This document shows positions 1 to 13,492 of a stretch of 27,306 nucleotides of DNA, in pieces. This DNA comes from a virus. The stretch's first letter is position 1. The number at the start of each line of letters is the position of its first letter. A program made the translations under genes and the position numbers. Below the pieces are notes generated by a model, which worked only from the letters and a program-made list of their open reading frames with translations, was not told the origin of the DNA and ran no database searches. The stretch is from positions 1 through 27,306 of IMG/VR virus record IMGVR_UViG_3300044612_001891. The stretch is one strand, 5' to 3'.

Positions 1-7
1 CTGCCAT
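1..7 (-). CDS. Start of a gene running off the left edge
   Basis: An ATG at 7-5 on the minus strand, followed by GCA, opens a reading frame that leaves the window after two codons. It is preceded on the minus strand by a purine-rich GAGGGAG block at Shine-Dalgarno distance and by a good promoter (-10 at 40-45, -35 at 63-68). Only Met-Ala is visible, so no function can be given. Lying downstream of a DUF6291-like gene, it could be another replication gene, but that is a guess from position only. Confidence 0.55.
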
Positions 8-39
8 AAACTCACTCCCTCGTTTAATGTTGTTGTGTA

Positions 40-68
40 TGCATAACACAAACACAAGCCACCGTCAA
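40..68 (-). promoter_or_regulatory. Promoter with dyad for the leftmost gene
   Basis: On the minus strand TTGACG (63-68), a 17-bp spacer and TATGCA (40-45) form a promoter. A perfect inverted repeat, TTGTGT-N7-ACACAA, covers the -10 (33-51). The -35 overlaps the stop codon of the gene at 65-661. It is a member of the recurring promoter-operator family of this window. Confidence 0.65.
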
Positions 69-661
69 GCATCATCTTTAGCTGCCATGTTCTGAATCTC
101 TAACCTCTTAACAACCTCTTTTTCCAAACAAGAATTGTTTTTTGTCAAAGTATTAAACAATTCCGCAATCTCGTGATACTGTGGATACCACTGCGTATTT
201 GATTCCTTGATTTGCTGATAAGCCACCAAAAGAGAAAGCGCGGAAATCTTCCCATGAAAATCCTCCGCAATCTCGTTTATCAAAATGGAAAGGGTAGCCT
301 CACCATTCGATGCGTGTTTAAAAGCCATCAGACGGCTAAGGACATCGGTCAACATCTTTTTGCTTGCCACCACCCATTGCAACCTCAAGACATCATCGTA
401 GAGGCTTCCTAGAGCCTTCTGGACGCATTCAGCATCTTGAGGCTCCTCTCGCAACAGATCAAAACTTTCCATTTTGGTTTTTGAATCGTACTTCAAACCG
501 TAAATACCCTTAGGACTCAAGGCCGAGATTACGTCTGACATTGATGATTTTACGTTCGTAGTCAGTGAGCTTGGCAGGGAATCTTTGATTCTTTTCGTGT
601 CCAAAGAAGACACCTTCACCTGATTCACCGCCGTTGTTACCATTGTTCCAATTTTCTGCAT
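65..661 (-). CDS. Hypothetical phage protein, 198 aa
   Basis: I do not recognise this protein. It has 198 residues, is soluble (no membrane segment or signal peptide), and is mostly predicted-helical with long Leu/Ala-rich stretches around residues 70-150. No P-loop or zinc motif is visible. The start at 661 is supported by a GGGAG ribosome-binding site eight bases upstream. The first 50 codons lie inside the end of the DUF6291-like gene in another frame (152-bp overlap), so the two are probably co-transcribed and translationally coupled. A later start at Met41 (541) would reduce the overlap but has no ribosome-binding site. Its position beside a replication-type gene suggests an early role; nothing firmer can be said. 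Confidence 0.7.
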   Translation of the reverse strand: MQKIGTMVTTAVNQVKVSSLDTKRIKDSLPSSLTTNVKSSMSDVISALSPKGIYGLKYDSKTKMESFDLLREEPQDAECVQKALGSLYDDVLRLQWVVASKKMLTDVLSRLMAFKHASNGEATLSILINEIAEDFHGKISALSLLVAYQQIKESNTQWYPQYHEIAELFNTLTKNNSCLEKEVVKRLEIQNMAAKDDA

Positions 662-1316
662 TGTGTTTTCTCCCGTTGGTTTTGGTTTCTTTCGTTTCGT
701 AAACTGTCTGCCATCCGCGCTCTATTGCTGCTTCCAGTAACTTCGCAGGATCGTTTCCATCGTTGTAGAGATTTATAATTTTGCTAATGAGCAATTCCTT
801 CGCCCGATGCGACATGGCCTTTTTCAAATCCTTGCGATGCTGAAAAAAATCCAAAAGCAAATCTTCAGGGATGTAACTGGGAATATCCAACGGCGTTTCA
901 GATTCCGCTTTTTTCTTTATAGATTTCTTTTTTAAAATATCAGTATCAGTATCAGTATCAGTATCAGTATCAGTATCAGGTTTTTTTGGGTTATTTTGGG
1001 TTTCTAAATTAACCGACTCTAACCCAGATAAACCCACTGGGTTATTTTGGGTTTCTTTGGGTTCCTCTGTTTTTACAGGACGACCTCCCTTTAAACCATT
1101 GATCTTGTTTCTTTCTTTCACGGACTCATATTTTTCCATGTCTCTATCAAGGTTCACTTTGATAAAACTGAATGCCATCTGCACGATGGGTTCCATTTCC
1201 ACATCATGACCCTGATTGTATAAAAAAATGGCTTTTAAAAGTTTCCCAGCCTGTTCATCCGTTAGCAACTGGATGTGCTGTTCGTAGTCCTGATACAGGA
1301 TAAAACTCTTTTTCAT
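510..1316 (-). CDS. DUF6291-like phage replication-region protein
   Basis: 268 residues. Residues 1-80 match the pattern of DUF6291 proteins of phages and prophages: a KSFILYQDYE start, a DEQAGKLLKAIFLYNQG helix, then a KERNKINGLKGGRP segment. Such proteins usually sit in replication modules next to helicase loaders; their biochemical role is not established. A low-complexity linker (about residues 80-140) contains two ETQNNP repeats and seven Asp-Thr units encoded by a TATCAG hexamer array (938-979). A basic segment and a second folded part (about 145-268) follow. The start has an AGGA ribosome-binding site. The promoter probably lies at 1411-1439. The last 50 codons overlap the next gene in a different frame. 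Family placement is fairly secure; the role in replication is inferred from context. Confidence 0.75.
   Translation of the reverse strand: MKKSFILYQDYEQHIQLLTDEQAGKLLKAIFLYNQGHDVEMEPIVQMAFSFIKVNLDRDMEKYESVKERNKINGLKGGRPVKTEEPKETQNNPVGLSGLESVNLETQNNPKKPDTDTDTDTDTDTDILKKKSIKKKAESETPLDIPSYIPEDLLLDFFQHRKDLKKAMSHRAKELLISKIINLYNDGNDPAKLLEAAIERGWQTVYETKETKTNGRKHNAENWNNGNNGGESGEGVFFGHEKNQRFPAKLTDYERKIINVRRNLGLES
938..979. repeat. (TATCAG)7 hexanucleotide tandem repeat
   Basis: Seven perfect copies of TATCAG read on the plus strand encode the Asp-Thr array of the DUF6291-like protein on the minus strand. Because the unit is six bases, slippage would change linker length by two residues and keep the frame. 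Confidence 0.95.
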
Positions 1317-1727
1317 GGGATTGTCCTCGCATCCTCGCTAAACAAATTTGGGGCAACCCGTCCTGCGAGGGAAGAGTGGGCTTTCGGCTGGCCTGCCTAG
1401 CCCCATGTTGTTGGTATATTATACAGGCAGAAAAGTCAATAAGGATAATTAAAAAAAGGAGGTGCGATGAAAAGTCAACGACAACTTTAATCACCGCACC
1501 AAGGCACCCTTAATACTGCGAACTCTGCTGGAGAGGGCCTGCCAGTTACTCGGCAGCTAGGCAGCACAAATCGGCCATTTTAGAACACATTTCCTTGTTC
1601 CTACATAAATCCCAATAGGAAATTACAATCCTACGGTGGCAACCCGTTTCTCATGTCACTAAGAAAGGGCTTTTGGAAGGAGGCTCTTCCTAGCACAATT
1701 CATTTGTATCACACACGCATACCAAGG
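1317..1727. other. Non-coding stretch with leader and inverted repeats
   Basis: No convincing gene is visible in these 411 bases; a 79-codon minus frame at 1255-1494 lacks coding character. On the minus strand TTGACT (1434-1439), 17 bp and TACCAA (1411-1416), with a TATAAT at 1418-1423, form a likely promoter giving a leader of about 90 bases before the gene at 1316. A second candidate minus promoter, TTGACC (1726-1731) with TACAAA (1703-1708), would transcribe 1695 leftward. CTGCCTAGC near 1394 and GCTAGGCAG near 1555 are complementary, and the 10-mer GGCAACCCGT occurs near 1353 and 1637, so the region may hold a structured leader or small RNA. This is inference. Confidence 0.4.
1411..1439 (-). 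promoter_or_regulatory. Candidate promoter of the DUF6291-like gene
   Basis: The minus strand shows TTGACT (1434-1439) and, 17 bp on, TACCAA followed by CAACATG. The same arrangement is seen in the minus promoter at 3207-3235. A consensus TATAAT (1418-1423) also lies here, but only 10 bp from this -35, so the exact hexamers are uncertain. Confidence 0.45.
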
Positions 1728-1934
1728 TCAATCATTTTTCTTGCGTAAGTTGGATAATTTAGCCCTTCTATTATCATGCAAAATCGCTTCCACAATGTAC
1801 TCTTTCACCAACTGAGATCGTGTCCATCCAAGTTGTTTTGCCCTCATATCAAGAGAATCCCTAATATCAAAAGGAATCCTCACGTTCAATGGAACGCTTG
1901 CGGATTCATACTTGTTTTCCGTGTCGTCTGTCAT
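1728..1934 (-). CDS. Ribbon-helix-helix DNA-binding regulator
   Basis: A 68-residue protein with the Arc/CopG/MetJ-type ribbon-helix-helix layout: a short beta strand at residues 13-20 (SVPLNVRI), helix A at about 22-35, a turn with Gly36-Trp-Thr-Arg-Ser, helix B at about 39-54, then a basic tail. Such proteins bind DNA as dimers through the strand pair and usually repress. A GAGGA ribosome-binding site precedes the start at 1934. The gene stands alone, flanked by non-coding DNA on both sides. The phased repeats at 2010-2134 upstream are the obvious place for autoregulation, and it is also a candidate for the shared operators elsewhere in the window. The fold is confident; the targets are inferred. 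Confidence 0.8.
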   Translation of the reverse strand: MTDDTENKYESASVPLNVRIPFDIRDSLDMRAKQLGWTRSQLVKEYIVEAILHDNRRAKLSNLRKKND

Positions 1935-2009
1935 AAAGTCCTCTTTGTTGCGTTCACTTGTAACACAAATGATATGTCATTAAAGGTGAAATAGCAAGAG
2001 GAAATTTTT

Positions 2010-2134
2010 GTCGATGTCAAGCGTCGATTCGTCGACGATAGGGATTATTTCGTCGACGATATTGTCGACAAATTGCGTAACTATCTGAAATTAAAACATA
2101 TACGCATATATGGATGCCGTCGACGCATATATGG
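2010..2134. repeat. GTCGAY cluster with 21-bp-phased direct repeats
   Basis: GTCGAC occurs at 2031, 2052, 2064 and 2119, and GTCGAT at 2010 and 2023. The 13-mer TTCGTCGACGATA is repeated at 2028-2040 and 2049-2061. The 12-mer ACGCATATATGG is repeated at 2102-2113 and 2123-2134. Both repeat pairs have a period of exactly 21 bp, two helical turns. Iterons or cooperative repressor sites would look like this. Confidence 0.75.
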
Positions 2135-2221
2135 CCCATAAATTCCCATGATTTCCCATCTGTGCCCACATGTTCAAAAAACGCCATTTTGTATACACGT
2201 TCTGGCGATATGCGTAAAAAG

Positions 2222-2250
2222 TTGACATATTTGAACATGTTTAGTATGTT
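2222..2250 (+). promoter_or_regulatory. Strong plus-strand promoter before hairpins
   Basis: TTGACA (2222-2227), a 17-bp spacer and TATGTT (2245-2250) form a near-consensus sigma70-type promoter. The spacer contains one arm of the ACATGTTCAAA/TTTGAACATGT inverted repeat. No plus-strand gene follows before 3242, so the product would be a non-coding or antisense RNA. Confidence 0.6.
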
Positions 2251-2252
2251 TA

Positions 2253-2370
2253 TGTTTCAGGGGTTCATCAAGGATGAACAAAACCATGGTCCCTGAAACA
2301 AGGGCACATGCTGAGAATGCTCGGTATGTGCCCTACTTGATTAGTGCTTTTAGATTGTCTCAGCATGACT
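2253..2370 (+). ncRNA. Candidate structured RNA with two hairpins
   Basis: Starting a few bases after the promoter at 2222-2250, TGTTTCAGGG (2253-2262) pairs perfectly with CCCTGAAACA (2291-2300) around an inner GTTCAT/ATGAAC stem. A second stem pairs GGGCACAT (2302-2309) with ATGTGCCC (2326-2333) and continues inward with CTGAG/CTCGG. CATGCTGAGA (2307-2316) can instead pair perfectly with TCTCAGCATG (2358-2367), so two mutually exclusive folds exist. Alternatively the hairpins are only the terminator of the minus-strand operon. The 3' end is not defined. Confidence 0.4.
2296..2333 (-). terminator. Terminator of the minus operon 2350-3172
   Basis: Read on the minus strand, GGGCACAT...ATGTGCCC (2333-2302) forms an 8-bp stem that extends inward. 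It is followed by TTGTTT and starts 17 bases after the stop of the gene at 2350. This is a plausible intrinsic terminator with a short U-tract. Confidence 0.5.
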
Positions 2371-2712
2371 AAAATCTACAATAATACGATTATTACCATC
2401 TTTTTTAACGGGAAATCTTGTTGTTTTTTCTTTGCAAATTCCCAAAAATTCCAAAAAAGTCTTTGCGTTAATAGAGGTTCCCGACACATGGTGTGTCATT
2501 TTATGTAAATGCTGTTCTTTCAGAGCGTCTTCGTCGCAAAGAAACTCTATACAAAAAAGTTTATTTTCTAAATCATGATAAAGCACGGCAAACTTGTATT
2601 TATCTAAAGAAAATTCCCTTTTTATCCCTGTGTTAAGATTGATTTTTCCTGTATTGCTTACACTGCAAATGAAAGGTTTTTTTGGGGGTTTTGTAAATTT
2701 TACAAAGTTCAT
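2350..2712 (-). CDS. Hypothetical phage protein, 120 aa
   Basis: Not recognised. I place the start at 2712 because AAGGAA lies just upstream; a longer frame to 2772 would overlap the preceding gene and has no such site. The 120-residue product is basic at its N-terminus (KFTKPPKKPF), then mixed alpha/beta with aromatic-rich strands and a HLHKMTHH histidine-rich segment near residues 74-81. It has no signal peptide or membrane segment. It follows the gene at 2726-3172 by 13 bases and is probably its operon partner. A hairpin terminator lies after its stop. Confidence 0.65.
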   Translation of the reverse strand: MNFVKFTKPPKKPFICSVSNTGKINLNTGIKREFSLDKYKFAVLYHDLENKLFCIEFLCDEDALKEQHLHKMTHHVSGTSINAKTFLEFLGICKEKTTRFPVKKDGNNRIIVDFSHAETI

Positions 2713-2725
2713 ACAATTTCCTTTT

Positions 2726-3172
2726 TTAAAGATGTTTAATTTCTTTTTGAATCTCTGCCACCAAAGATTCATGCATTGTCACGCCCTCAAGGGCGGGTAT
2801 GCAGCGTTTAAGAAGCTGCTTTGCCCGTTGTTGGGCAGTAAAAGGTTGCTGTTCAGGTGTCTTTCTTTTCTCAGGGTGCAGCACCCACGTCTTAAAGTTA
2901 ATGCCCTCTTCCTTACCTTGTATTCCGCACTGAAGGACATGCTCATAGTATGAATCCATATCTTCAAACGTGGCATTTAGCTTTAAGCACTCTTGGACAA
3001 AGTCTATGCTGTAGTATCTGTCGCAGCATTCAAAAACATTGGTGTAATCGTTTTCGTCCCACCCAACAAAATCCACCGTCTCTAAAGATTCTTCAGGGTA
3101 ATATTTCTTAAGAAACGCAATAATCGTTTTTTTACACGCATCATTATACTTTAACCACGCATCATTTTTCAT
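2726..3172 (-). CDS. Hypothetical phage protein, 148 aa
   Basis: Not recognised. The 148-residue soluble protein is acidic and aromatic-rich in its first half (several YY and WDEND-type stretches, a CC pair near residues 49-50). Its basic second half includes PEKRKTPEQQPFTAQQRAKQ, which looks like a linker leading into a C-terminal helix. It is the first gene of a two-gene leftward operon. The promoter is the minus member of the face-to-face pair at 3207-3235. The ribosome-binding site (AGAGA) is weak. Confidence 0.65.
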   Translation of the reverse strand: MKNDAWLKYNDACKKTIIAFLKKYYPEESLETVDFVGWDENDYTNVFECCDRYYSIDFVQECLKLNATFEDMDSYYEHVLQCGIQGKEEGINFKTWVLHPEKRKTPEQQPFTAQQRAKQLLKRCIPALEGVTMHESLVAEIQKEIKHL

Positions 3173-3182
3173 AACTTATCTC

Positions 3183-3211
3183 TTGATTTTGTCATTGTGT
3201 TGGTGTATGGT
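3183..3211 (+). promoter_or_regulatory. Rightward promoter of a face-to-face pair
   Basis: TTGATT (3183-3188), 17 bp and TATGGT (3206-3211) face right towards the gene at 3242. The -10 shares five bases with the -10 of the leftward promoter on the other strand. GTGTT (3197-3201) and AACAC (3218-3222) form an inverted repeat around both. Confidence 0.6.
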
Positions 3212-3235
3212 ATACATAACACAAACGAAAGTCAA
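3207..3235 (-). promoter_or_regulatory. Leftward promoter of a face-to-face pair
   Basis: On the minus strand TTGACT (3230-3235), 17 bp and TACCAT (3207-3212) face left towards the gene at 3172. Two polymerases cannot occupy this and the rightward promoter at once. Confidence 0.6.
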
Positions 3236-3241
3236 GAGATT

Positions 3242-3478
3242 ATGATTTTATCATACTACTACACAGGGATTCACAAAGATGAATTGCCGGCTTTTGAAAA
3301 GAAGGCAAAGAAACTACAGGCTGATTATAAATCGTTCGTGGTCGGCGGTATCGAAAGAACAATGCGGGTTCATTTCACGGGTGATGATTTAACCGAGTGT
3401 GAAAAAAAAGCATCTGTTTTTCGTAAGGTTTATGCAAACAAAAAGCAGATCGGTCCGTGGTCGAGAGAAGTGCGATGA
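3242..3478 (+). CDS. Hypothetical phage protein, 78 aa
   Basis: Not recognised. I choose the ATG at 3242 because AAGAGA precedes it and it lies downstream of the expected transcript start near 3218; the frame is open further upstream, but that part overlaps the promoter. The 78-residue, Lys-rich protein reads like a small alpha/beta domain: an N-terminal hydrophobic strand (ILSYYYTGIH), a helix rich in Lys (PAFEKKAKKLQADY), two strands, then a final helix. It is the first gene of a four-gene operon and overlaps the next by ATGA (3475-3478). Confidence 0.65.
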   Translation: MILSYYYTGIHKDELPAFEKKAKKLQADYKSFVVGGIERTMRVHFTGDDLTECEKKASVFRKVYANKKQIGPWSREVR

Positions 3479-3912
3479 AACACACACAAGAAACGCTAGA
3501 TACATTATTGGAAAATGGAATTAGAGATTTTTCAGGATGCGATTTATCGGGTTTGAGTTTCAAAAAGTATTCCAAAGAAAATCTGAGCATTTTTGCAGAA
3601 ATGAATTTAGATGAATCATTTTTTTGTCGAGATAACAATCTTGATTTTGAGCAATTATGTTTAGCATCCCTAAAGGGCGCTTACATGGAAGAAATGATTG
3701 TGACTTGGGGCATAACTTTTTGGTGTGAGAAAAAAAAGTATAATTATGAAGAAAAAGTTTGTTTAAAAGAAAAAATAAAATCATTCTCTATGGCTTACAA
3801 AGAAACAAATAATGGTGAGTTCTTACTAAAATCAGATATTCCCTTTATGATAAAGGGATGCTCTATGAAAAGATTTCAATACCTAAAGCCATGTTTGGAT
3901 AATTTACTATGA
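3475..3912 (+). CDS. Short paralogue of the pentapeptide-repeat protein
   Basis: The 145-residue product begins with a module nearly identical in layout to that of the next gene: M-K-x-T-Q-E-x-L-D, then GIRDFSGCDLSGLSF. In the neighbour this becomes GIKDFSGCDLSGLKF and runs on into pentapeptide repeats. Here the repeats stop after about 35 residues and the rest is a Lys/Glu-rich region with no clear family. It overlaps both neighbours by ATGA, so all three are translated from one mRNA. It looks like a tandem duplication in which only the N-terminal module was kept. A partner or modulator of the full-length protein is an inference. Confidence 0.7.
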   Translation: MKHTQETLDTLLENGIRDFSGCDLSGLSFKKYSKENLSIFAEMNLDESFFCRDNNLDFEQLCLASLKGAYMEEMIVTWGITFWCEKKKYNYEEKVCLKEKIKSFSMAYKETNNGEFLLKSDIPFMIKGCSMKRFQYLKPCLDNLL

Positions 3913-4739
3913 AAAAGTACACACAAGACGAACTAGATGATGCACTAAGTGACGGAATCAAGGATTTTTCGGGATGTGATCTATCGGGCTTAAAGTTTAT
4001 AGGATTAAGCCTTTGCGCGGCCAACTTTGTTGGGTCGGATATGATTTCAACAGAAATAGTGACTTGTGACTTTTCATGCTCTAATTTTGACGGTGCAGAT
4101 TTAACGGGTTCCTATATCACGGAATCCAAATTTAATGGCTCAACGTTTAATGGATCCAAACTGAAAAAATGCCAGATTTTGCTTTGCGATTTTAGTCCAC
4201 ATATTTATCAATACGCTGCAACTGTAGACAAAGAACGAAAAGTAAAAAAAACAGTTATTCACGGGTCAAATTTTTCAGGTTCTTGTCTTTATGGTTCAGA
4301 TTTTTGTCATATTGAGATAATGGGAACAGATTTTTCTCACGTCGTAACGTTTACAGATAATGCAAAAACGAATGAAACTATTGAAGCTCTTTTTGGTAAA
4401 AAATGGACCTTAGATACAATCAAAGGGGTAAAATTTTGCGGTGCTAATTTACTCGGATGCTGTTTTACAGAGGCAAGCCTTGCCAAGGCTAATTTTTATG
4501 GGTGTCAACTGGATGGTGTTTCTTTTAGACAGGCCACCCTAATTCATTGCGACTTCCAACACGCAAAACTTAAGGGATCAAATTTCCGACACGCATACAT
4601 TCATGCTGGTGATTTTGATTATGCAGATTTATCGGGGGCAAACTTTCAATGGGTGCCATTAAAAAACCCTGATTTTAAAGGCGTAACCCTTATCGGAACG
4701 GAAACCAATGGGGCGCGTTTGCAAGAAATAACCTATTAA
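3909..4739 (+). CDS. Pentapeptide-repeat protein, 276 aa
   Basis: Pentapeptide repeats of the A(D/N)LxG and xxFxx type occur in two blocks, about residues 18-96 (for example SNFDGADLTGSYI, SKFNGSTFNGS) and 172-270 (VKFCGANLLGC, ANFYGCQLDG, ADLSGANF). They are separated by a charged, non-repeat insert. Such repeats fold into a right-handed quadrilateral beta helix; some family members (Qnr, MfpA) mimic DNA and bind gyrase, but most are of unknown function. There is no signal peptide or membrane segment, so it is probably cytoplasmic, and unusually many Cys are present. It is the third gene of the operon from the promoter at 3183. A DNA-mimic or anti-host-defence role is possible but unproven. 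Confidence 0.85.
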   Translation: MKKYTQDELDDALSDGIKDFSGCDLSGLKFIGLSLCAANFVGSDMISTEIVTCDFSCSNFDGADLTGSYITESKFNGSTFNGSKLKKCQILLCDFSPHIYQYAATVDKERKVKKTVIHGSNFSGSCLYGSDFCHIEIMGTDFSHVVTFTDNAKTNETIEALFGKKWTLDTIKGVKFCGANLLGCCFTEASLAKANFYGCQLDGVSFRQATLIHCDFQHAKLKGSNFRHAYIHAGDFDYADLSGANFQWVPLKNPDFKGVTLIGTETNGARLQEITY

Positions 4740-4757
4740 AATTATGGAGATAACCAA

Positions 4758-5000
4758 ATGATTAAATCTACAGCAATTTTTGTTCTCATGGCTGCCCTTT
4801 CGAGTGCGGCTATGGCGCAAACGCCCTACTACAGCGTAGAATGCCTTTACGAATGGACACTTCACTGTGAACGGTTAAAAATGGAAGAAGAGCGGGCACA
4901 CAGAGAAGAGATGCTACAGGAAATGAAACGGCAAAACCGAATCCTGCAACAGCAAGCAGATCAGGAAAAAAGGGCTTTTCAATGGAGAAATCTTGATTAG
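4758..5000 (+). CDS. Small exported coiled-coil protein
   Basis: 80 residues with a classic Sec signal peptide: Lys3, a hydrophobic core at about 5-18, and a cleavage motif AMA-Q at 19-22. The mature part is about 60 residues and is a highly charged helix (EEERAHREEMLQEMKRQ) likely to form a coiled coil in the periplasm, with two Cys near its start that could form a disulphide. A GGAG ribosome-binding site precedes the ATG, and the gene follows the pentapeptide gene by 18 bases. There is no lipobox. Phage-encoded periplasmic proteins of this size often alter the envelope or block superinfection; that is context, not evidence. Confidence 0.75.
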   Translation: MIKSTAIFVLMAALSSAAMAQTPYYSVECLYEWTLHCERLKMEEERAHREEMLQEMKRQNRILQQQADQEKRAFQWRNLD

Positions 5001-5230
5001 ATTTTTGCTTTTGGGCGGCGGCCGCGTGGCTTTTTTGCTTCCAAAGAGGGTAGAATAATAATTTTATCCTCTTTATTGCCATTCTCAGCAAGGGCAACTA
5101 TTTTTCTGGCATCCTCAATGCAGCCATTGATAACGGTTTCATCAAAAAAAGATGTCATTTTATCGTATCGCTTAATCAAAAGCGCATTCAGAGCGGCTGC
5201 AAAAACTGATGAAGTATCGGTCATAATCAT
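4997..5230 (-). CDS. Small protein with AT-hook-like C-terminus
   Basis: The likely product starts at 5230 (MIMTDTSS; 5224 is the alternative) and has 77 residues. The body is helical. The C-terminus KKPRGRRPKAKI resembles an AT-hook (basic residues around Arg-Gly-Arg next to Pro), which binds the minor groove of AT-rich DNA. The gene is convergent with the exported-protein gene, overlapping its stop by four bases. A promoter TTGTGT-N17-TAGTAT (5344-5349, 5321-5326) lies back-to-back with that of the gene at 5400. The leader can fold through CACCGTG/CACGGTG. DNA binding is inferred from the tail alone. Confidence 0.6.
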   Translation of the reverse strand: MIMTDTSSVFAAALNALLIKRYDKMTSFFDETVINGCIEDARKIVALAENGNKEDKIIILPSLEAKKPRGRRPKAKI

Positions 5231-5320
5231 TACTTTTCTTAATTGTAACTTACAGAATAAAACGACACCGTGTCTGGCCAAGCCAAATCCTACAAAACGA
5301 CGTAGTCACGGTGCTTGCAT

Positions 5321-5349
5321 ATACTATACAAAAAAACCCCTTGACACAA
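5321..5349 (-). promoter_or_regulatory. Leftward promoter with hairpin leader
   Basis: On the minus strand TTGTGT (5344-5349), 17 bp and TAGTAT (5321-5326). Transcription would begin near 5314, so the first bases of the RNA (CACCGTG, 5313-5307) can pair with CACGGTG (5272-5266) to cap the leader. The -35 overlaps that of the rightward promoter. Confidence 0.45.
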
Positions 5350-5369
5350 GCCCTTTTGTTGTGTAGTGT
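5341..5369 (+). promoter_or_regulatory. Promoter with TGTTGT-N13-ACAACA operator
   Basis: TTGACA (5341-5346), 17 bp and TAGTGT (5364-5369). The inverted repeat TGTTGT (5357-5362) and ACAACA (5376-5381) encloses the -10. The 25-bp dyad is almost identical to the one at 8638-8662. Confidence 0.75.
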
Positions 5370-5399
5370 ATACAAACAACAACAAACAAGGAAACCCTT

Positions 5400-5798
5400 A
5401 TGGTATCATTAACAGATTTTAACAAGCCTTTTGAATGCACAGACGTGTACGAAAGAGAAAAATACACACTGGAACACGTAGAACTTTCTGATGATGAGGA
5501 TTTGATCGGAAAAGATGTTACTTTAATGGCGTATGTTTTTTATCCGAACAAACTTTTTAAAAGTCTATTTCGTATCCGCTCAAAAGAGCAAGAAGGCACA
5601 GTAAATTTAGGCGCGTTAGAGTTTCTTTTGACCCCTGATGAATATGAAGATTTTTTAGGTGGATTGCTGGATGTTTGCAGTGATTTTTCTGTTGAAGAGC
5701 CAAACAAATGGCGCACACACATCAAATACGTTTGGTCCACAGAGGAAATTGAAAAAACAGACGGACTTCTTTATGACCCAGAATACAGAACCCTGTAA
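5400..5798 (+). CDS. Hypothetical phage protein, 132 aa
   Basis: Not recognised. The product is acidic and soluble, with strands rich in aromatic residues and short acidic loops (SDDEDL, TPDEYEDF). There is no membrane segment, signal peptide or known catalytic motif. AAGGAA lies seven bases before the ATG and transcription should begin near 5376 from the dyad-covered promoter. It appears to be a one-gene unit followed by another promoter and a terminator. Confidence 0.7.
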   Translation: MVSLTDFNKPFECTDVYEREKYTLEHVELSDDEDLIGKDVTLMAYVFYPNKLFKSLFRIRSKEQEGTVNLGALEFLLTPDEYEDFLGGLLDVCSDFSVEEPNKWRTHIKYVWSTEEIEKTDGLLYDPEYRTL

Positions 5799-5803
5799 AC
5801 CCC

Positions 5804-5832
5804 TTGACAATGGTTGGTGTATGTGTCATAAC
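5804..5832 (+). promoter_or_regulatory. Promoter with an 8-bp-arm dyad
   Basis: TTGACA (5804-5809), 17 bp and CATAAC (5827-5832). A perfect inverted repeat GTTGGTGT (5813-5820) and ACACCAAC (5834-5841) has the same 13-bp spacing as the dyads at 5357 and 8638. The -10 is only a moderate match. Confidence 0.55.
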
Positions 5833-5835
5833 AAC

Positions 5836-5917
5836 ACCAACGCTCATAAGTGGTTTTGGTTTCTTGCCACTTAAAACTTGGCGGGGTTTCTTTGTTGATG
5901 GGAGGCCCCGTTTTTTT
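5836..5917 (+). ncRNA. Candidate small RNA or attenuated leader
   Basis: Between the promoter at 5804-5832 and a terminator at 5882-5917 there is no reading frame, only a hairpin AAGTGG (5848-5853)/CCACTT (5867-5872) and the terminator stem. A transcript of about 80 bases is expected. It may be a stand-alone small RNA, or a leader whose terminator controls the operon that starts at 5953, which has no other obvious promoter. Confidence 0.4.
5882..5917 (+). terminator. Intrinsic terminator or attenuator
   Basis: CGGGG (5882-5886) pairs with CCCCG (5906-5910), followed directly by seven T (5911-5917). The loop is long (19 bases), so strength may be moderate. Confidence 0.6.
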
Positions 5918-5952
5918 ATTGATTGAGTACCAACAAGCAAAGGAGAGTGATT

Positions 5953-6234
5953 ATGGAAAAAGTACTCTACGGCCTATGGCATATCCAGCATGGTGATCTA
6001 CTAACAGTTACAACTGAATCTAATAATAGAACCGATTGTGTGGATATTCATCACGATTTAAGTGTTGGTGATGACAATTATTGGTTAGTAAAGGATAGAA
6101 CAGTTGCCGAGAAAGCTTCTGTTCATAGCGAACCTTGGTACAATGCTAACTATGATACACCTAGTAACAGATACAAGGGTGAAACAAAAGTGGTTAAAGT
6201 AGTAGTATGTGTAGATGAAGAGGAGTCATTATGA
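5953..6234 (+). CDS. Hypothetical phage protein, 93 aa
   Basis: Not recognised. The ATG at 5953 is chosen because AGGAG lies eight bases upstream. The 93-residue product looks like an all-beta or alpha/beta small domain with a conserved-looking start (LYGLWHIQHGDLLTVTTE) and an acidic tail (DEEESL). It is first in a three-gene operon and overlaps the next gene by ATGA. No dedicated promoter is seen, so expression probably depends on read-through of the terminator at 5882-5917. Confidence 0.65.
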   Translation: MEKVLYGLWHIQHGDLLTVTTESNNRTDCVDIHHDLSVGDDNYWLVKDRTVAEKASVHSEPWYNANYDTPSNRYKGETKVVKVVVCVDEEESL

Positions 6235-6638
6235 CCAAACTATACCCTATAGGCACACAACTCATAACAAAGAGGCTGAGTCAGGCGTACCTTGCAGATG
6301 AAATTGGTTTTTTCATTGAAACACAGCTTTCAGATAAAGAATTTTGCCAAGATTTTATTCTTATGCATTGTGGCTTTGATATTGATACATGGCGCGTCAC
6401 AGTTACCAAAAAAAACCAAAAATGGTTAAGTCCTGTACCGATGGTGGGGGATTTGGTGGATGTTTATAAAGAATATTCAGTATTTACACCTATGTATTTT
6501 TCTAAGTTTGAGTTTGAATTATCAGAAAACTTTAGTGCAGTCGTTAAACGTATTATTGAACGCACTTACCCCAACGGCCAACGCGCACCGTTGATTGAAT
6601 GGGACGAAGTGATCCTGCCAAAAACTAAGGGAGAATAA
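6231..6638 (+). CDS. Hypothetical phage protein, 135 aa
   Basis: Not recognised. It is a soluble mixed alpha/beta protein that ends with an aromatic-acidic segment (IEWDEVILPK). The next gene ends with a comparable pattern (LWDAEIIKYPK), so the two may be distant relatives. A GAGGAG ribosome-binding site precedes the ATG, which overlaps the preceding stop codon. Confidence 0.65.
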   Translation: MTKLYPIGTQLITKRLSQAYLADEIGFFIETQLSDKEFCQDFILMHCGFDIDTWRVTVTKKNQKWLSPVPMVGDLVDVYKEYSVFTPMYFSKFEFELSENFSAVVKRIIERTYPNGQRAPLIEWDEVILPKTKGE

Positions 6639-6640
6639 TT

Positions 6641-7051
6641 ATGACGCCACAATACAGTCCGGATGATTTTGAAAGTATTGGAAACGATACTCATAATCAA
6701 TTTACTTTAATAAAAAAAACTACTATTGAAGAGCCTTTGATTGTGGTTTTGTCTTTGTATATTCAGTTTTTTCTGAAACCAATTGCTGACAATAAGAAGT
6801 TGGCCCAAGAATTTGTTTCTTTTTACAATGAAAAATACAAACTTTTGGATAGGGATAAAATGCCTAAGGGGTACGAATGGCGTTACGCCTCGGTAGATTT
6901 TGATAAAAAAGAGCACACAATTATCAGGTTTAAAGTGATACTTGACTGGCACATGTTGGCCCAAAATTGGATGGTGCGTTTATGGGATGCTGAAATAATA
7001 AAATATCCCAAGATTACTAATCAAACACCAGAACCCCACCCTGCTGCTTAA
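6641..7051 (+). CDS. Hypothetical phage protein, 136 aa
   Basis: Not recognised. A hydrophobic stretch at about residues 31-46 (EPLIVVLSLYIQFFLKP) could be a buried helix rather than a true membrane span. The protein ends in a short Pro/Ala tail. The start has GGGAG upstream and follows the previous stop by two bases. The last 35 bases overlap the convergent gene at 7017-7271. Confidence 0.65.
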   Translation: MTPQYSPDDFESIGNDTHNQFTLIKKTTIEEPLIVVLSLYIQFFLKPIADNKKLAQEFVSFYNEKYKLLDRDKMPKGYEWRYASVDFDKKEHTIIRFKVILDWHMLAQNWMVRLWDAEIIKYPKITNQTPEPHPAA

Positions 7052-7271
7052 CCCTATCCAGCAGATCGTCAATCTCTTGCCTGATACTCTCTAGACAATG
7101 CACAGATGCGTTGATGTTGTAATCATCCACCGTGTTGGCATGGAAACGCGCAACACGGCATAAACACTCTATCGTTTTTAAATGATTGTTTTTCAGGATT
7201 ATGTCCTGAACGTTTTTTAAAGGCTCTTGCTTTTTCTTTTTATACTCAAAAAGATCAATGACCTTCCTCAT
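7017..7271 (-). CDS. Hypothetical phage protein, 84 aa
   Basis: Not recognised. I choose the ATG at 7271 because it gives only a 17-base overlap with the HTH gene upstream. The product is helical, with a Lys-rich segment (YKKKKQEPLKN) and a C-terminal helix (CLESIRQEIDDLLDRVKQQGG). As second gene of the HTH operon it may modulate that regulator, but nothing in the sequence shows this. Confidence 0.55.
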   Translation of the reverse strand: MRKVIDLFEYKKKKQEPLKNVQDIILKNNHLKTIECLCRVARFHANTVDDYNINASVHCLESIRQEIDDLLDRVKQQGGVLVFD

Positions 7272-7533
7272 ACTGAATCTTGCCCTCAAAGTATGCTTTT
7301 TTAATCTTCTCCGGCACGATCTCAAGTTCTCTAGCCACATCATCGAAATTTAAATCCAATACTTTACAAAGGCAACGTAAAAATGCTTCGTCCTGACTTT
7401 TTGTGCGTCGGTCTTCGATAAAAAGAATTTTGTGACCCGATCCTGAAAAACCATAGTCTTTCATCAAATCAAGAACATGGCCTCTTGACCAACCCAACGA
7501 TTCCCTGCGACTTCTTAAAAGCGTTTTGTGCAT
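7255..7533 (-). CDS. XRE-like helix-turn-helix protein
   Basis: 92 residues. The first 70 fit an XRE/HTH_3-type fold with a longer loop than usual: helix 1 LRSRRESLGWS, helix 2 GHVLDLMKDYG, a recognition region about 31-45 (GSGHKILFIEDRRTKS), then DEAFLRCLCKVLDLNFDDVAREL, the typical scaffold helices 4 and 5. AAGGA lies before the start. It is divergent from the operon at 7613, whose promoter and dyad-like sequence are in between. It could therefore repress that promoter and the related ones, and is the main alternative to the ribbon-helix-helix protein as master regulator. Confidence 0.65.
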   Translation of the reverse strand: MHKTLLRSRRESLGWSRGHVLDLMKDYGFSGSGHKILFIEDRRTKSQDEAFLRCLCKVLDLNFDDVARELEIVPEKIKKAYFEGKIQYEEGH

Positions 7534-7549
7534 AACATCCTTTTTCTTC

Positions 7550-7578
7550 TTGACTTAATCTTTGTCTATTTGGTATGT
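7550..7578 (+). promoter_or_regulatory. Promoter of the VRR-NUC operon
   Basis: TTGACT (7550-7555), 17 bp and GTATGT (7573-7578), or TATGTA with an 18-bp spacer. The downstream sequence ATATCACACATCC lacks the clean ACAACA arm seen in other members of the family. Confidence 0.55.
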
Positions 7579-7612
7579 ATATCACACATCCACAAAAAAA
7601 GAAAGTGTTTTT

Positions 7613-7846
7613 ATGATTGCAAAATTAAAGTCTGAGTTCGTGTTTAAGAGCTTTCCCTTTGAGGTTGACGAAATTAGTGATGAAGAGGTAACCCAGTACC
7701 TTAACAAGGCTGCTAGTGAGGGATGGTCTTTATACAGCACGAATCTTGCTCTTGATTCTGACCGCGTTGTTCAGACGTTTGTTCACAAGAAGCGCAAAAA
7801 GGATCAAAAAGAAGACTCTTTGGTGGACACGTTTGGCACTCATTGA
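7613..7846 (+). CDS. DUF4177-like small protein
   Basis: 77 residues resembling DUF4177-type proteins: an N-terminal strand and linker ending in EVDEISDEEVTQYLNKAASEGWSL, followed by strands and a terminal VQTFVHKK segment. The leucine-(x)n-EGW core is the family hallmark; the function is unknown. The start at 7613 follows a weak purine-rich site. It is the first gene of a tightly packed operon of four (7613-8625). Confidence 0.6.
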   Translation: MIAKLKSEFVFKSFPFEVDEISDEEVTQYLNKAASEGWSLYSTNLALDSDRVVQTFVHKKRKKDQKEDSLVDTFGTH

Positions 7847-8097
7847 TGATAAGGGATGAGAATTTTTTAGACGACGCTGAAGTGGATATTGATTTTAATG
7901 TCTTTCCCACAGCCAGCTTTGTCATCACGTTCCATCCCTTCCCAGACGAATCTGATGCCCATTTTGAATGCACCCTTGTGGATTTGATTTGGGAAGCGGT
8001 ATCCCAAAGAATTGAAAACAAGGAAAACCCAAAAACAATCTCAAATTACTTGAGAATGTTGGCAAGCGAAATAGATGGAGCGTGTGATGATTCTTAA
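7846..8097 (+). CDS. Hypothetical acidic protein, 83 aa
   Basis: Not recognised. The ATG at 7846 shares its A with the TGA of the preceding gene, pointing to translational coupling; an upstream TTG at 7843 is the alternative start. The product is very acidic (DENFLDDAEVDIDF at the start) with a helical second half. No motif is visible. It overlaps the next small gene by 11 bases. Confidence 0.6.
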   Translation: MIRDENFLDDAEVDIDFNVFPTASFVITFHPFPDESDAHFECTLVDLIWEAVSQRIENKENPKTISNYLRMLASEIDGACDDS

Positions 8098-8245
8098 AGC
8101 CGCCTGTTTTGTCTTGATTGTCACGGTGCTGGCTTTGCTGTCTTTGATAGTGCTGGACGATCAAAAGGTGTGTTTTGACTATGGTCGCCTGAAGGATAAA
8201 ATGGTGTCTATGGTTGTGGATTCTGAAACGGTGCCTGTGGAGTAA
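8087..8245 (+). CDS. 52-residue single-span membrane protein
   Basis: A short gene between the acidic protein and the nuclease. ATG at 8087 has TGGAG upstream, and TAA at 8243-8245 overlaps the ATG of the nuclease gene. After MILKAA come about 19 hydrophobic residues (roughly 7-26, CFVLIVTVLALLSLIVL), then a charged 26-residue tail. This is a single membrane helix, N-in by the positive-inside rule, with its C-terminus outside. It fills the operon gap exactly, which supports its being real. The function is unknown; small phage membrane peptides often inhibit host functions. Confidence 0.65.
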   Translation: MILKAACFVLIVTVLALLSLIVLDDQKVCFDYGRLKDKMVSMVVDSETVPVE

Positions 8246-8625
8246 TGTTTAAAAGAAAAAAAGCATTTTTTAGTCCAGAGGACCTTTTGCAACGGGCCAT
8301 AATAGAGCACCTTCGGTTGGTTATGAAAAAAGGCATTGTCTACCATATTAAGAATGACGGTGAAACTGAGGCAAAACGCAAAAGAAACGCAGCTATTGGC
8401 GTTCTCTCTGGTGTTGCTGACTTGCACGTTGTATGGGCAGGGGGCCATGGGTATATTGAAGTCAAGCTACCCAAAAAAACCAGCGTTCAAAAGCCCAGCC
8501 AAATAGAATTTGAAAAAACCTGCAAGGCATTAAAAGTACCCTACGCCGTTTGTCGATCCCTTGACGATGTGACGCAGTTTGTTTTGGATAACAAAATACC
8601 CAATAGAATATCAAATAAACGTTGA
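8245..8625 (+). CDS. VRR-NUC domain nuclease
   Basis: 126 residues forming a stand-alone VRR-NUC (PD-(D/E)XK superfamily) domain: an N-terminal helix with Glu12 and Glu21, then GVADLHVV (56-63, catalytic Asp59), YIEVKLPK (70-77, Glu72-x-Lys74), and the helix with PSQIEFEK (84-91, Gln86). The stand-alone phage form is about this length. Members cleave branched DNA such as Holliday junctions or flaps. It closes the operon from 7550, beginning at the stop codon of the small membrane gene, and lies upstream of the GlyRS-like and ERF recombinase genes. A role in recombination or resolving replication intermediates is likely. Confidence 0.85.
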   Translation: MFKRKKAFFSPEDLLQRAIIEHLRLVMKKGIVYHIKNDGETEAKRKRNAAIGVLSGVADLHVVWAGGHGYIEVKLPKKTSVQKPSQIEFEKTCKALKVPYAVCRSLDDVTQFVLDNKIPNRISNKR

Positions 8626-8650
8626 CTTGGTTTGTGTTGTTGTGTATTGT
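8622..8650 (+). promoter_or_regulatory. Promoter-operator of the GlyRS-like gene
   Basis: TTGACT (8622-8627), 17 bp and TATTGT (8645-8650). The inverted repeat TGTTGT (8638-8643) and ACAACA (8657-8662) with 13-bp spacing matches that at 5357-5381 at all but one position across the dyad. The -35 overlaps the stop codon of the nuclease gene. Confidence 0.75.
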
Positions 8651-8683
8651 ATACAAACAACATTATATAGCAAAAGAGTATTT

Positions 8684-9379
8684 ATGAAACAATGTTTTAC
8701 CAATGCCACAGTAGCATGGAATGAGTTAGAAATCATCCGGCGAGAAAGTTTAATCCGTGAAATACCTATTTTGCTGAACAACGTTTGGCGAGGTCTAAAT
8801 CCTGCTGTAAGATTTGAGCGTGTAGAAACACCTATTCTAACGCCAGCATCTTATTTACAAAGCCATATAAATGCAAAATTTGAACTTATTGAGGCTGGAA
8901 AGCGTGGCTTTTTGAGGCCGGAAACAACAGCCGGAACGTTTGAAGCCATGAGCATGTTGTTTCCACAAAAAGAATCCATGAAAAAGCATTTGCCTTTGTG
9001 TCTTTGGCAAGTGGGTTTATCTTTTCGAGATGAAAAAAACCCAGACACCATGAGGGCCAGCAAACTAAGATTGGTTCAATTTTACCAAATAGAATTTCAG
9101 TTATTTTGCAGTCATGGAACAAAGGCTCCTTATTTAGAAACTGCCGCTAATGCTCTCACGGACTTTTATTGTGGGCATTTAGAAAATCCAGAGGATTTGC
9201 CACATTATAGCGAAAAAACGATTGATTGGGTTATAGATACTTTAGAAGTGGGCGGGTTGTCTAAGAGAACAGATTGGGAACACGGCGAAGTTTACGAGGT
9301 TGCCATAGGCATAGACAGGCTTGTCGCAAAACAATTACAGACTTTTTATTCAATCCAAGACGAAAGAAGGTTGACTTAG
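8684..9379 (+). CDS. Stand-alone glycyl-tRNA-synthetase-like catalytic core
   Basis: The 231-residue product follows the catalytic domain of alpha2-type (archaeal/eukaryotic-like) glycyl-tRNA synthetase, a class II enzyme. Motif 1 lies around 42-52 (VRFERVETPIL). The GlyRS signature RGFLRPETTAG (74-84) aligns with RGYLRPETAQG. Motif 2 starts with SFRDE (113-117) and continues through IEFQLF (136-141). KRTDWEHG (194-201) matches the GIANRTDYDL region, and motif 3 is YEVAIGIDR (204-212). The anticodon-binding domain and most insertions are missing, so it is about half the usual length. In motif 3 the usual EPS(F/Y)G reads EVAIG, so a serine in the glycine pocket is replaced by alanine. It is monocistronic behind a dyad promoter. 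Ligation of an amino acid to something other than tRNA is possible. Family placement is strong; the substrate is unknown. Confidence 0.85.
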   Translation: MKQCFTNATVAWNELEIIRRESLIREIPILLNNVWRGLNPAVRFERVETPILTPASYLQSHINAKFELIEAGKRGFLRPETTAGTFEAMSMLFPQKESMKKHLPLCLWQVGLSFRDEKNPDTMRASKLRLVQFYQIEFQLFCSHGTKAPYLETAANALTDFYCGHLENPEDLPHYSEKTIDWVIDTLEVGGLSKRTDWEHGEVYEVAIGIDRLVAKQLQTFYSIQDERRLT

Positions 9380-9399
9380 TATCGCACTGTGTGTATTGT
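9371..9399 (+). promoter_or_regulatory. Promoter of the ERF gene
   Basis: TTGACT (9371-9376), 17 bp and TATTGT (9394-9399), followed by TTACAAACATCAACA, which keeps the right arm of the operator but not the left. The -35 lies within the last codons of the GlyRS-like gene. Confidence 0.7.
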
Positions 9400-9427
9400 T
9401 TACAAACATCAACACAAAGGAGCCTTT

Positions 9428-10105
9428 ATGAGTATCTTGTACGAATTACAGAAAAACATTCATGCGCCAAAGGACAAAAAAAACACCTTTGGAAACTACA
9501 ATTATAGGACCGCTGAGGGCATTCTTGCGGTGGCTAAGTCTGTGATGCCTGAGGGCGTAAGCATTGTGCTTAGTGACGATGTTATCGAGATTGGGGGGCA
9601 TATTTTTGTGAAGGCAAAAGCAACCTTAAAATCAGGGAGTGACGTTATTGCTGAATCTTTTGGTTTTGCTGGGCATCCTTTGGATAAAAAGGGAATGGAT
9701 TTTTCGCAAATCACAGGGGCTTCTTCGTCTTATGCCCGTAAGTATGCTTTGCAAGGCTTGTTTGCCCTTGACGATAGTTCCGCTGACCCTGACGTTACCA
9801 ACAAGCACGAAACAGACACAAGAACGAAAACTGCCCCTGCAAAAATTTACGCGCCTTCTACGCCAGCGGCAGACCAAGGAACAGGACCAAAAGTGGCAAG
9901 TGATAAGCAAAAAGGCATGATAACTGTTCTTGGGAAAAAGCTGAATCCAGATGTAGCGGCCAAGATCAAAGCAGATTTTAAAATTATGACAAACGATCAG
10001 TGGAATTCTATGACATCATTTACGGCATCCAAACTTATTGAGGCTTTGCAAAATGCGGAAAAGTCGCCACAAGAACACGTTTTAGATGATGAAATTCCTT
10101 ATTAG
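9428..10105 (+). CDS. erf: ERF-family single-strand annealing recombinase
   Basis: 225 residues. The N-terminal 130 show the ERF superfamily pattern: start helix LYELQKNIHAPKDKK, FGNYNYRTAEGILAVAK (21-37), then VKAKATLKSGSDVI, and GASSSYARKYALQGLFALDD, which corresponds to the G-x-S-Y-(A/G)-(R/K)-(K/R)-Y-x-L hallmark. A Thr/Pro/Ala linker leads to a small helical C-domain. The last eight residues (VLDDEIPY) copy the acidic tip of SSB proteins (DDDIPF) used to recruit partners. AAGGAG precedes the ATG at 9428. The protein anneals single strands during phage recombination or circularisation, and would pair naturally with the nearby nuclease. Confidence 0.9.
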   Translation: MSILYELQKNIHAPKDKKNTFGNYNYRTAEGILAVAKSVMPEGVSIVLSDDVIEIGGHIFVKAKATLKSGSDVIAESFGFAGHPLDKKGMDFSQITGASSSYARKYALQGLFALDDSSADPDVTNKHETDTRTKTAPAKIYAPSTPAADQGTGPKVASDKQKGMITVLGKKLNPDVAAKIKADFKIMTNDQWNSMTSFTASKLIEALQNAEKSPQEHVLDDEIPY

Positions 10106-12568: not shown

Positions 12569-13492
12569 TTAATTCCAGTCTACGGTTGGGGCATTTCTAT
12601 CCCCTGTGGGAGACGTTGATGCCTGTGCAAATACGGTTGTACCATCCAGTTTATAAATTGTCACGTCACCCGTTGTTTCGTTAATATCAACTCTAGCAAG
12701 CTGCGTTCTTGTTACGCCTCTAAGCATTTGTCCCGCAGAAACAGAACCTTCTAAAATATAATTCCACACCTCTTGAGCAATCTCTTGGGCTGTGGGACAA
12801 GCTGTTGATGCACCAGAATACGTTAATGTGGCATTATTACCAGAATAAGACAACGTTCCCGTATCTGCTACTAACGTGTATGACCCTATTGTTGCATACG
12901 TTAAATTCGCATTATTCCCTAAATAACTGTATGTGGCCCCATCAGCCTCAATTCTTTTATTGTATAATAAATTAGAAGCATTGCCGGAGTATGTATAAAT
13001 CCCGCCATCAGCCGTAATGGTTCTAGGATAAATCAGGTTTGCGTTGTTTCCTAAATACGAAAACGTCCCCGTATTTGCGGATAATGTATATGAACCTGCG
13101 GTAGCATAGACAAGGTTAGCATTGTTCCCTGAGTAAGTATAAGCCCCTCCATCAGCCAAAATAACCCGAGAAGAAACAAAATTGGAATTATTGCCAGAAT
13201 AAGAAAATACCCCTCCATCTAAAAGAATCGTCCTATTAAACAAAAGATTGGCGTTGTTTCCTGAATACGAAAACGCGCCAACGTCCGCGAAAATTGTTTT
13301 ATTAAACAATAAATTAGAGTTATTCCCACTGTAAGCGTATGTGCCGCCGTCCGCAGACAACACATACGATCCAACTGTTGTATACGTTAAATTAGCATTA
13401 TTTCCTAAATAAGTGTATGTTCCACCATCCGCAACTAACGTATATGCGCCGCTTGCTGTTCCTGTGATTCTAGGGACCCGAACCCGCAACAT
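12569..13492 (-). CDS. Nine-repeat beta-structure adhesin
   Basis: 307 residues. Residues about 17-235 consist of nine imperfect repeats of 22-26 residues with the core (A)DGGxYxYSGNNANLxY; Gly-Asn-Asn is almost invariant. Regular turns of this kind suggest a beta-solenoid or a stacked beta fold, as in phage tail-tip adhesins. The C-terminal part (CPTAQEIAQEVWNYILEG, then GQMLRGVTRTQLARVDINE) resembles the trailing domain of several phage structural proteins. It is the last large gene of the leftward late operon. Exposed receptor binding is inferred. A Gly-poor N-terminus of only 15 residues precedes the repeats, and the start lies two bases from the end of the GC-rich lectin gene. Confidence 0.7.
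   Translation of the reverse strand: MLRVRVPRITGTASGAYTLVADGGTYTYLGNNANLTYTTVGSYVLSADGGTYAYSGNNSNLLFNKTIFADVGAFSYSGNNANLLFNRTILLDGGVFSYSGNNSNFVSSRVILADGGAYTYSGNNANLVYATAGSYTLSANTGTFSYLGNNANLIYPRTITADGGIYTYSGNASNLLYNKRIEADGATYSYLGNNANLTYATIGSYTLVADTGTLSYSGNNATLTYSGASTACPTAQEIAQEVWNYILEGSVSAGQMLRGVTRTQLARVDINETTGDVTIYKLDGTTVFAQASTSPTGDRNAPTVDWN
12765..13450 (-). repeat. Degenerate 66-78-bp tandem repeats in the adhesin gene
   Basis: Nine head-to-tail units encode the SGNNANL repeats. The DNA is conserved around the Gly-Asn-Asn-Ala-Asn-Leu codons (plus-strand forms of TTAGCATTATTTCC and variants recur), giving substrate for unequal recombination and changes in repeat number. Confidence 0.75.

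Follow-up and report, generated by a model that had tools for sequence, protein, structure and literature searches.

A putative two-way promoter with a shared -10 region retained among relatives of an uncultured podovirus-like phage

The locus and its genomic context

The DNA analysed comprises positions 1–27,306 of record IMGVR_UViG_3300044612_001891, which belongs to an uncultured phage; this stretch, at its full length of 27,306 nucleotides, is referred to below as the window. At 3173–3241 it contains a 69-bp intergenic region bounded by two divergent genes, whose ATG codons lie at 3172 (minus strand) and 3242 (plus strand), and this short region holds two predicted promoters together with both ribosome-binding sites. 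The leftward arm begins with a gene for a 148-aa protein (2726–3172, minus strand) matching phrog_35741, a family of unknown function, at E 4.4e-5. The end of this gene is overlapped by a second leftward ORF (2350–2772, minus strand) of 140 aa when counted from its first ATG, a later start being possible. The rightward arm consists of three plus-strand genes, encoding a 78-aa protein of unknown function (3242–3478), a 145-aa protein without Pfam match whose N-terminus resembles, by eye, that of the following gene's product (3475–3912), and a pentapeptide-repeat protein of 276 aa (3909–4739; PF00805, E 2e-35). The initial annotation had assigned a pentapeptide protein to one of the two operons, and it is indeed encoded by the third gene of the rightward arm. 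In the window, the opening gene of each arm lacks a match to known regulators, a comparison that families without a description could escape.

The window encodes a major head protein (phrog_283, E 1.1e-58), and the proteins that it matches in phage records are P22-type coat proteins. A head closure protein, a lysozyme, an Erf-like annealing protein and a replication protein with primosomal and O-like matches are encoded as well, and the phage is podovirus-like. All 31 matches of the head protein among phage records show less than 60% identity, the DNA of 2700–3500 had no match among 50,697 phage records, and two queries of the genome contig collection returned no relative. The recombinase search took in PF00589 and PF07508 alone; in 14 records, which may be fragments, it returned no match to PF00589 (positive controls matched in 14/14) and none to PF07508 (positive controls matched in 3/14 only). 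The search for a T7-type RNA polymerase (PF00940) is uninformative, as no positive control matched.

Two predicted overlapping divergent promoters

The rightward promoter is composed of a -35 element TTGATT (3183–3188, plus strand), whose TTGA is kept in 13/13 records covering the place, and a -10 element TATGGT (3206–3211, plus strand). The leftward promoter has TTGACT as its -35 element (3230–3235, minus strand) and TACCAT as its -10 element (3207–3212, minus strand). Each has a spacer of 17 nt in the window, and the two -10 hexamers, offset by one base on opposite strands, overlap by the five bases 3207–3211. Hexamer positions, spacers and overlap are all as the initial annotation had given them. 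Its label "face-to-face" is misleading: the genes diverge and the predicted starts, at 3200 on the minus strand and 3218 on the plus strand, lead apart, so that the arrangement is one of overlapping divergent promoters.

The predicted rightward start is an A, 7 nt past the -10 element, and the predicted leftward start is likewise an A, at a distance of 18 bp from its counterpart; T occupies both -18 positions. The -7T and -11A positions are reciprocally paired, with A3207 and T3211 of the rightward promoter opposite T3207 and A3211 of the leftward one. The match to consensus is 4/6 in each -10 hexamer, 4/6 in the rightward -35 and 5/6 in the leftward -35.

In published descriptions of bacterial bidirectional promoters, starts lie 7–25 bp apart, 18 bp being the commonest distance, and the class is characterised by reciprocal -7T/-11A and +1A/-18T pairs (PMC12825309, PMC10268837). 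With the promoters of this class (Warman et al.; PMC12825309, PMC10268837) the present site shares a -10 region used on opposite strands, a separation of 18 bp, which is predicted here, both reciprocal relations and divergent genes on either side. It differs from the bacterial and plasmid cases in that their starts are mapped, whereas here they are predicted, in an uncultured phage and with TTGA on both sides.

Chance expectation and the phage's own promoter family

Generic scans for promoters did not distinguish the pair from chance and were abandoned as evidence for it. A sigma-70 scan of positions 1–8000 gave 22 sites against 19.8 (sd 3.9) in shuffled sequence; at a cut-off of 9/12 the scan listed the leftward site (9/12), missed the rightward one (8/12) and listed another leftward promoter-like site, scoring 10/12, at 3172–3143 inside the leftward gene. 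A loose definition of a pair with a five-base overlap likewise performed at chance level, with seven pairs in the window and a mean of 5.85 in 60 shuffles. Under a strict definition (TTGA on both sides, 17/17 spacers and TA...T on both strands) the window contains one pair, that at 3206, while none occurred in 100 shuffled windows or in 20,000 shuffles of the intergenic stretch; a slightly wider definition, with spacers of 16–18, again picked out a single pair in the window, where 200 shuffled windows averaged 0.05. Both definitions were drawn up post hoc, with the site already seen.

Better evidence comes from within the phage, from its own promoter family. The plus-strand promoters at 5341–5376, 8622–8657 and 9371–9406, which lie ahead of the genes at 5400 and 8684 and of the Erf-like gene (ATG at 9428), respectively, have in common TTGAC, a spacer of exactly 17 nt and a TAtnGTaTACAaACA core. 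A promoter matrix was built from five hand-picked phage promoters with the tested site left out of training; among 54,524 positions, where four training sites were ranked too, the rightward promoter came 6th and the leftward promoter 12th. The one-direction pattern TTGA-N2-N16-18-TANNNTA-N5-A, itself composed post hoc after the sites had been seen, has four matches in the window, two of which are this pair, against one for the reversed control, and over 14 records it has 63 matches against 13. Judged by their sequence, both hexamer pairs are members of the phage's own promoter family.

Retention in related phages

Relatives were represented by 11 IMG/VR contigs that encode relatives of the leftward gene and by a twelfth, L035, reached via the helix-turn-helix (HTH) protein described below. 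The geometry, that is, an 18-bp separation of predicted starts, +1A, -18T and spacers of 16–18, is found in all 13 records covering the place, the leftward spacer measuring 16 nt in three, 17 in nine and 18 in one (L035). These records hold seven distinct site sequences; the DNA alignment of the site took in 12 of the 13 records, leaving out L008, whose site reads like that of L007. Only L035 is moderately diverged: it shows 52% identity in the HTH protein and 64% in two others, and its -10 elements, TATGAT and TATCAT, keep the five-base overlap with altered spacers. Twelve of the 13 site copies differ very little from one another and 11 of the 12 relatives were reached via a gene beside the site, so that the retention amounts to about two independent observations. 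The proposal that overlapping promoters share a -10 region at this place is supported by a strict pair that is unique in the window and by retention in 13/13 records.

Between the window and L035 the hexamers were not clearly more conserved than the spacers (16/19 vs 21/34, Fisher p 0.08), and sliding the conservation mask by -2 or -3 produced scores of 18, above the observed 16; a focused conservation footprint, being not significant, was dropped. Among 19 Erf-based loci, several of which end before the place, no third clear case was found: the layout occurs in the two known phages and in two records with one identical sequence (0.4 expected), and these two records have no gene on both sides of it. 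There is no site in L024/L051, a single contig that stops 279 bases short of the MILSYYY-type gene, or in the short contigs L028, L050, L053 and L054, which may not cover the place.

The element remains in position while the genes around it change. Across the 13 records the first rightward gene is of the ML[HY]RL type in nine, the MILSYYY type in two and the M[NS]EW type in two, and the first leftward gene is MKND-like in nine, of the MIQPF type in three and encodes a pentapeptide protein in one; ORFs start 17–38 nt from the core on each side in 13/13. The MILSYYY gene lies directly behind the promoter in the window, but is separated from it by one to three genes in the 11 near relatives. A pentapeptide gene is third on the right arm in the window, whereas the left arm of L035 opens with one; its product (PF00805, E 6.8e-10) and the start of the window's pentapeptide protein are 42% identical over 72 residues. 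Given these changes of gene type and the pentapeptide gene's change of side, a fixed opposition of two programmes is not conserved. By the criteria applied to its bases and layout, the site is a retained bidirectional phage promoter.

The inverted repeat and a candidate regulator

An inverted repeat straddles the centre of the site, as the initial annotation had noted. Its outer arms (3178–3190 and 3228–3240) pair at 92%, and each fuses one gene's Shine-Dalgarno-like (SD) sequence to the opposite promoter's -35: the left arm contains the leftward AAGAGA and the rightward -35, the right arm the rightward AAGAGA and the leftward -35. The inner arms, TTGTGTT at 3195–3201 and AACACAA at 3218–3224, form an exact 7-bp repeat that puts AACACAA at or beside the predicted start of each transcript, and the core palindrome pairs at 76%. 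The total dyad was reached in 30 of 5000 full shuffles, in 203 of 5000 with promoter bases fixed and in 2090 of 5000 with promoter and SD bases fixed. The repeat follows largely from the inverted placement of the two promoters and of the two ribosome-binding sites; with most of the dyad explained by promoter and SD bases, the whole repeat was dropped as a separate element, and its outer part, which overlaps the SD sequences and the -35 elements, needs no function of its own. When both promoter and SD bases were kept in place, only 84 of 5000 shuffles reached the inner 7-bp arms, which are a possible operator.

A candidate to act at such an operator is an XRE/CI-like HTH protein of 92 aa (7255–7533, minus strand). 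Its model has a lambda-repressor-like HTH (pLDDT 72) and aligns to the N-terminal domain of TP901-1 CI (VIA Z 8.9, 1.9 Å, 65 residues); Foldseek found no match for the model at E <= 0.001 (best E 0.17), and searches of Pfam, PHROGs and NCBIfam gave the protein no match to an HTH family.

It is conceivable, if rather doubtful, that the promoters are real and that the dyad is chiefly an operator, where a dimeric XRE-like phage protein would bind the core and repress both arms. The rarity of the inner arms and the alignment to TP901-1 CI are consistent with such a role, as is the 16-base core pattern, which with up to three mismatches has five matches at four places in the window, where 100 shuffles averaged 0.48. 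The total dyad, however, is unremarkable in shuffles that keep promoter and SD bases in place, the model's pLDDT is only 72 and its best Foldseek E 0.17, and with 12-base arms the two-way site pairs at 8/12 where other window sites pair at 7–8/12. L035, whose HTH protein is 52% identical, speaks for an operator in having a recurring TACATATACC and, at a promoter other than the two-way site, a 12/12 palindrome, but its copy of the two-way site is without that recurring motif; since this motif, a different one, occurs at other promoters only, a common operator at the two-way site is unproven. A search of the window's promoters did not find a strong palindromic operator at every one of them.

A probable two-way promoter and its alternatives

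Because the adjoining genes diverge, the site is best read as a bidirectional promoter. We consider it probable, at roughly 0.72, that it acts as a compact two-way promoter with joint expression of its two arms. The -11A of each promoter would be base-paired with the other's -7T, setting the starts 18 bp apart, and polymerase holoenzyme would bind in either orientation, leading to transcription of the leftward accessory operon or of the rightward operon with the pentapeptide gene in third place. At modest promoter strength both arms would be made in one cell by successive initiations, and the outcome would be co-expression from one compact site rather than exclusion. We infer that both promoters are active, early and used by a host sigma-70-type holoenzyme. 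A shared regulator may act on both of them, and the XRE-like protein (7255–7533) perhaps regulates the two-way promoter in this manner.

Polymerase would hold one orientation at a time, as the initial annotation had stated for this site and as PMC12825309 states for promoters with a shared -10. According to the same paper, basal activity at five of five E. coli bidirectional promoters was too low for competition, weakening one -35 barely affected the opposite RNA in all five, and competition appeared once one -35 was improved or an activator acted. The imperfect hexamers suggest that the phage site, too, may work in a low-competition regime. It is a more speculative and, in our estimate, unlikely extension that the symmetric promoter serves as a fixed two-way hub, with accessory genes exchanged on both sides, gating by the XRE-like protein and competition only if one arm is strengthened.

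There is little reason to expect that only one promoter works, the other arising by accident as an echo of -10 symmetry. Near-symmetric -10 elements do give reverse matches elsewhere, as at the 8622 promoter, whose reverse match, with a -35 of 4/6 at a spacing of 16 nt, has nothing before it but an ORF antisense to 8245–8625, but at the present site TTGA on both sides and ORF starts close to the core on both sides recur in 13/13 records, and the strict two-sided layout is found nowhere else in the window.

A mutually exclusive switch, as initially proposed, in which polymerase on one promoter shuts the other and cells express one operon or the other, is improbable: the overlap forbids simultaneous binding, E. 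coli promoters compete when one direction is strongly raised (PMC12825309) and pLS20 has a genuine switch with overlapping divergent promoters (PMC4207663), but the same E. coli work reports little competition at basal activity in 5/5 promoters, both promoters here are imperfect consensus matches, the first genes of both arms change and a pentapeptide gene swaps side, neither adjoining window gene matches a known regulator, and a PF00589 or PF07508 recombinase is found in 0/14 records, possibly fragments. On this analysis the proposed exclusion appears unsupported; a bidirectional layout alone does not evidence an either/or switch, and co-expression is rated well above exclusion.

Lambdoid cI/cro regions are transcribed divergently, as is this site, and as in those phages the genome also codes for an XRE-like protein. 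Unlike the lambdoid arrangement, the XRE-like gene here lies 4 kb away in a divergent region of its own, and the 14 records are without a PF00589 or PF07508 match. Plasmid pLS20, with its Pr and Pc promoters (PMC4207663), offers another case of overlapping divergent promoters in a mobile element; there, one arm makes the regulator and DNA looping controls the pair, whereas here neither first gene matches a known regulator.

The bidirectional promoter class and its rules are already in print, and the arrangement is known in bacteria; in literature titles and abstract openings, none of the matches listed concerned a shared -10 bidirectional promoter in a phage. The site described here adds a retained example of the class from a phage lineage, in which the element stays and the driven genes change, and provides a compact natural template for asking when shared -10 promoters compete.

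Further features of the window and its relatives

The predicted leftward transcript would carry an 8-codon upstream ORF (3169–3195, minus strand), its stop and the leftward gene's start codon overlapping as ATGA; this ORF is present in 11 of the 13 records and absent from L002 and L035. A second divergent region, at 7534–7612, separates the XRE-like gene from a rightward gene and contains weaker matches to the promoter family on both strands. In L035, a perfect 12/12 palindrome, TGGTATATGTAT-T-ATACATATACCA, lies over a promoter's -10 at about 6550–6575 of the reverse strand.

Elsewhere in the window, the plus-strand ORF at 8684–9379, which sits behind one of the promoters of the phage family, matches the class II tRNA synthetase core (PF00587) at E 2.3e-5, below the family cut-off, and a small minus-strand ORF at 1728–1934 matches the BrnA antitoxin at E 1.3e-5, also below the cut-off. 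Direct and inverted repeats containing GTCGAC are clustered at 2015–2070, in a stretch with only a doubtful ORF, and are possibly a replication or partition site. Close to the tail genes, the minus strand at 12569–13492 encodes a protein of repeated YSGNNANL-type units.
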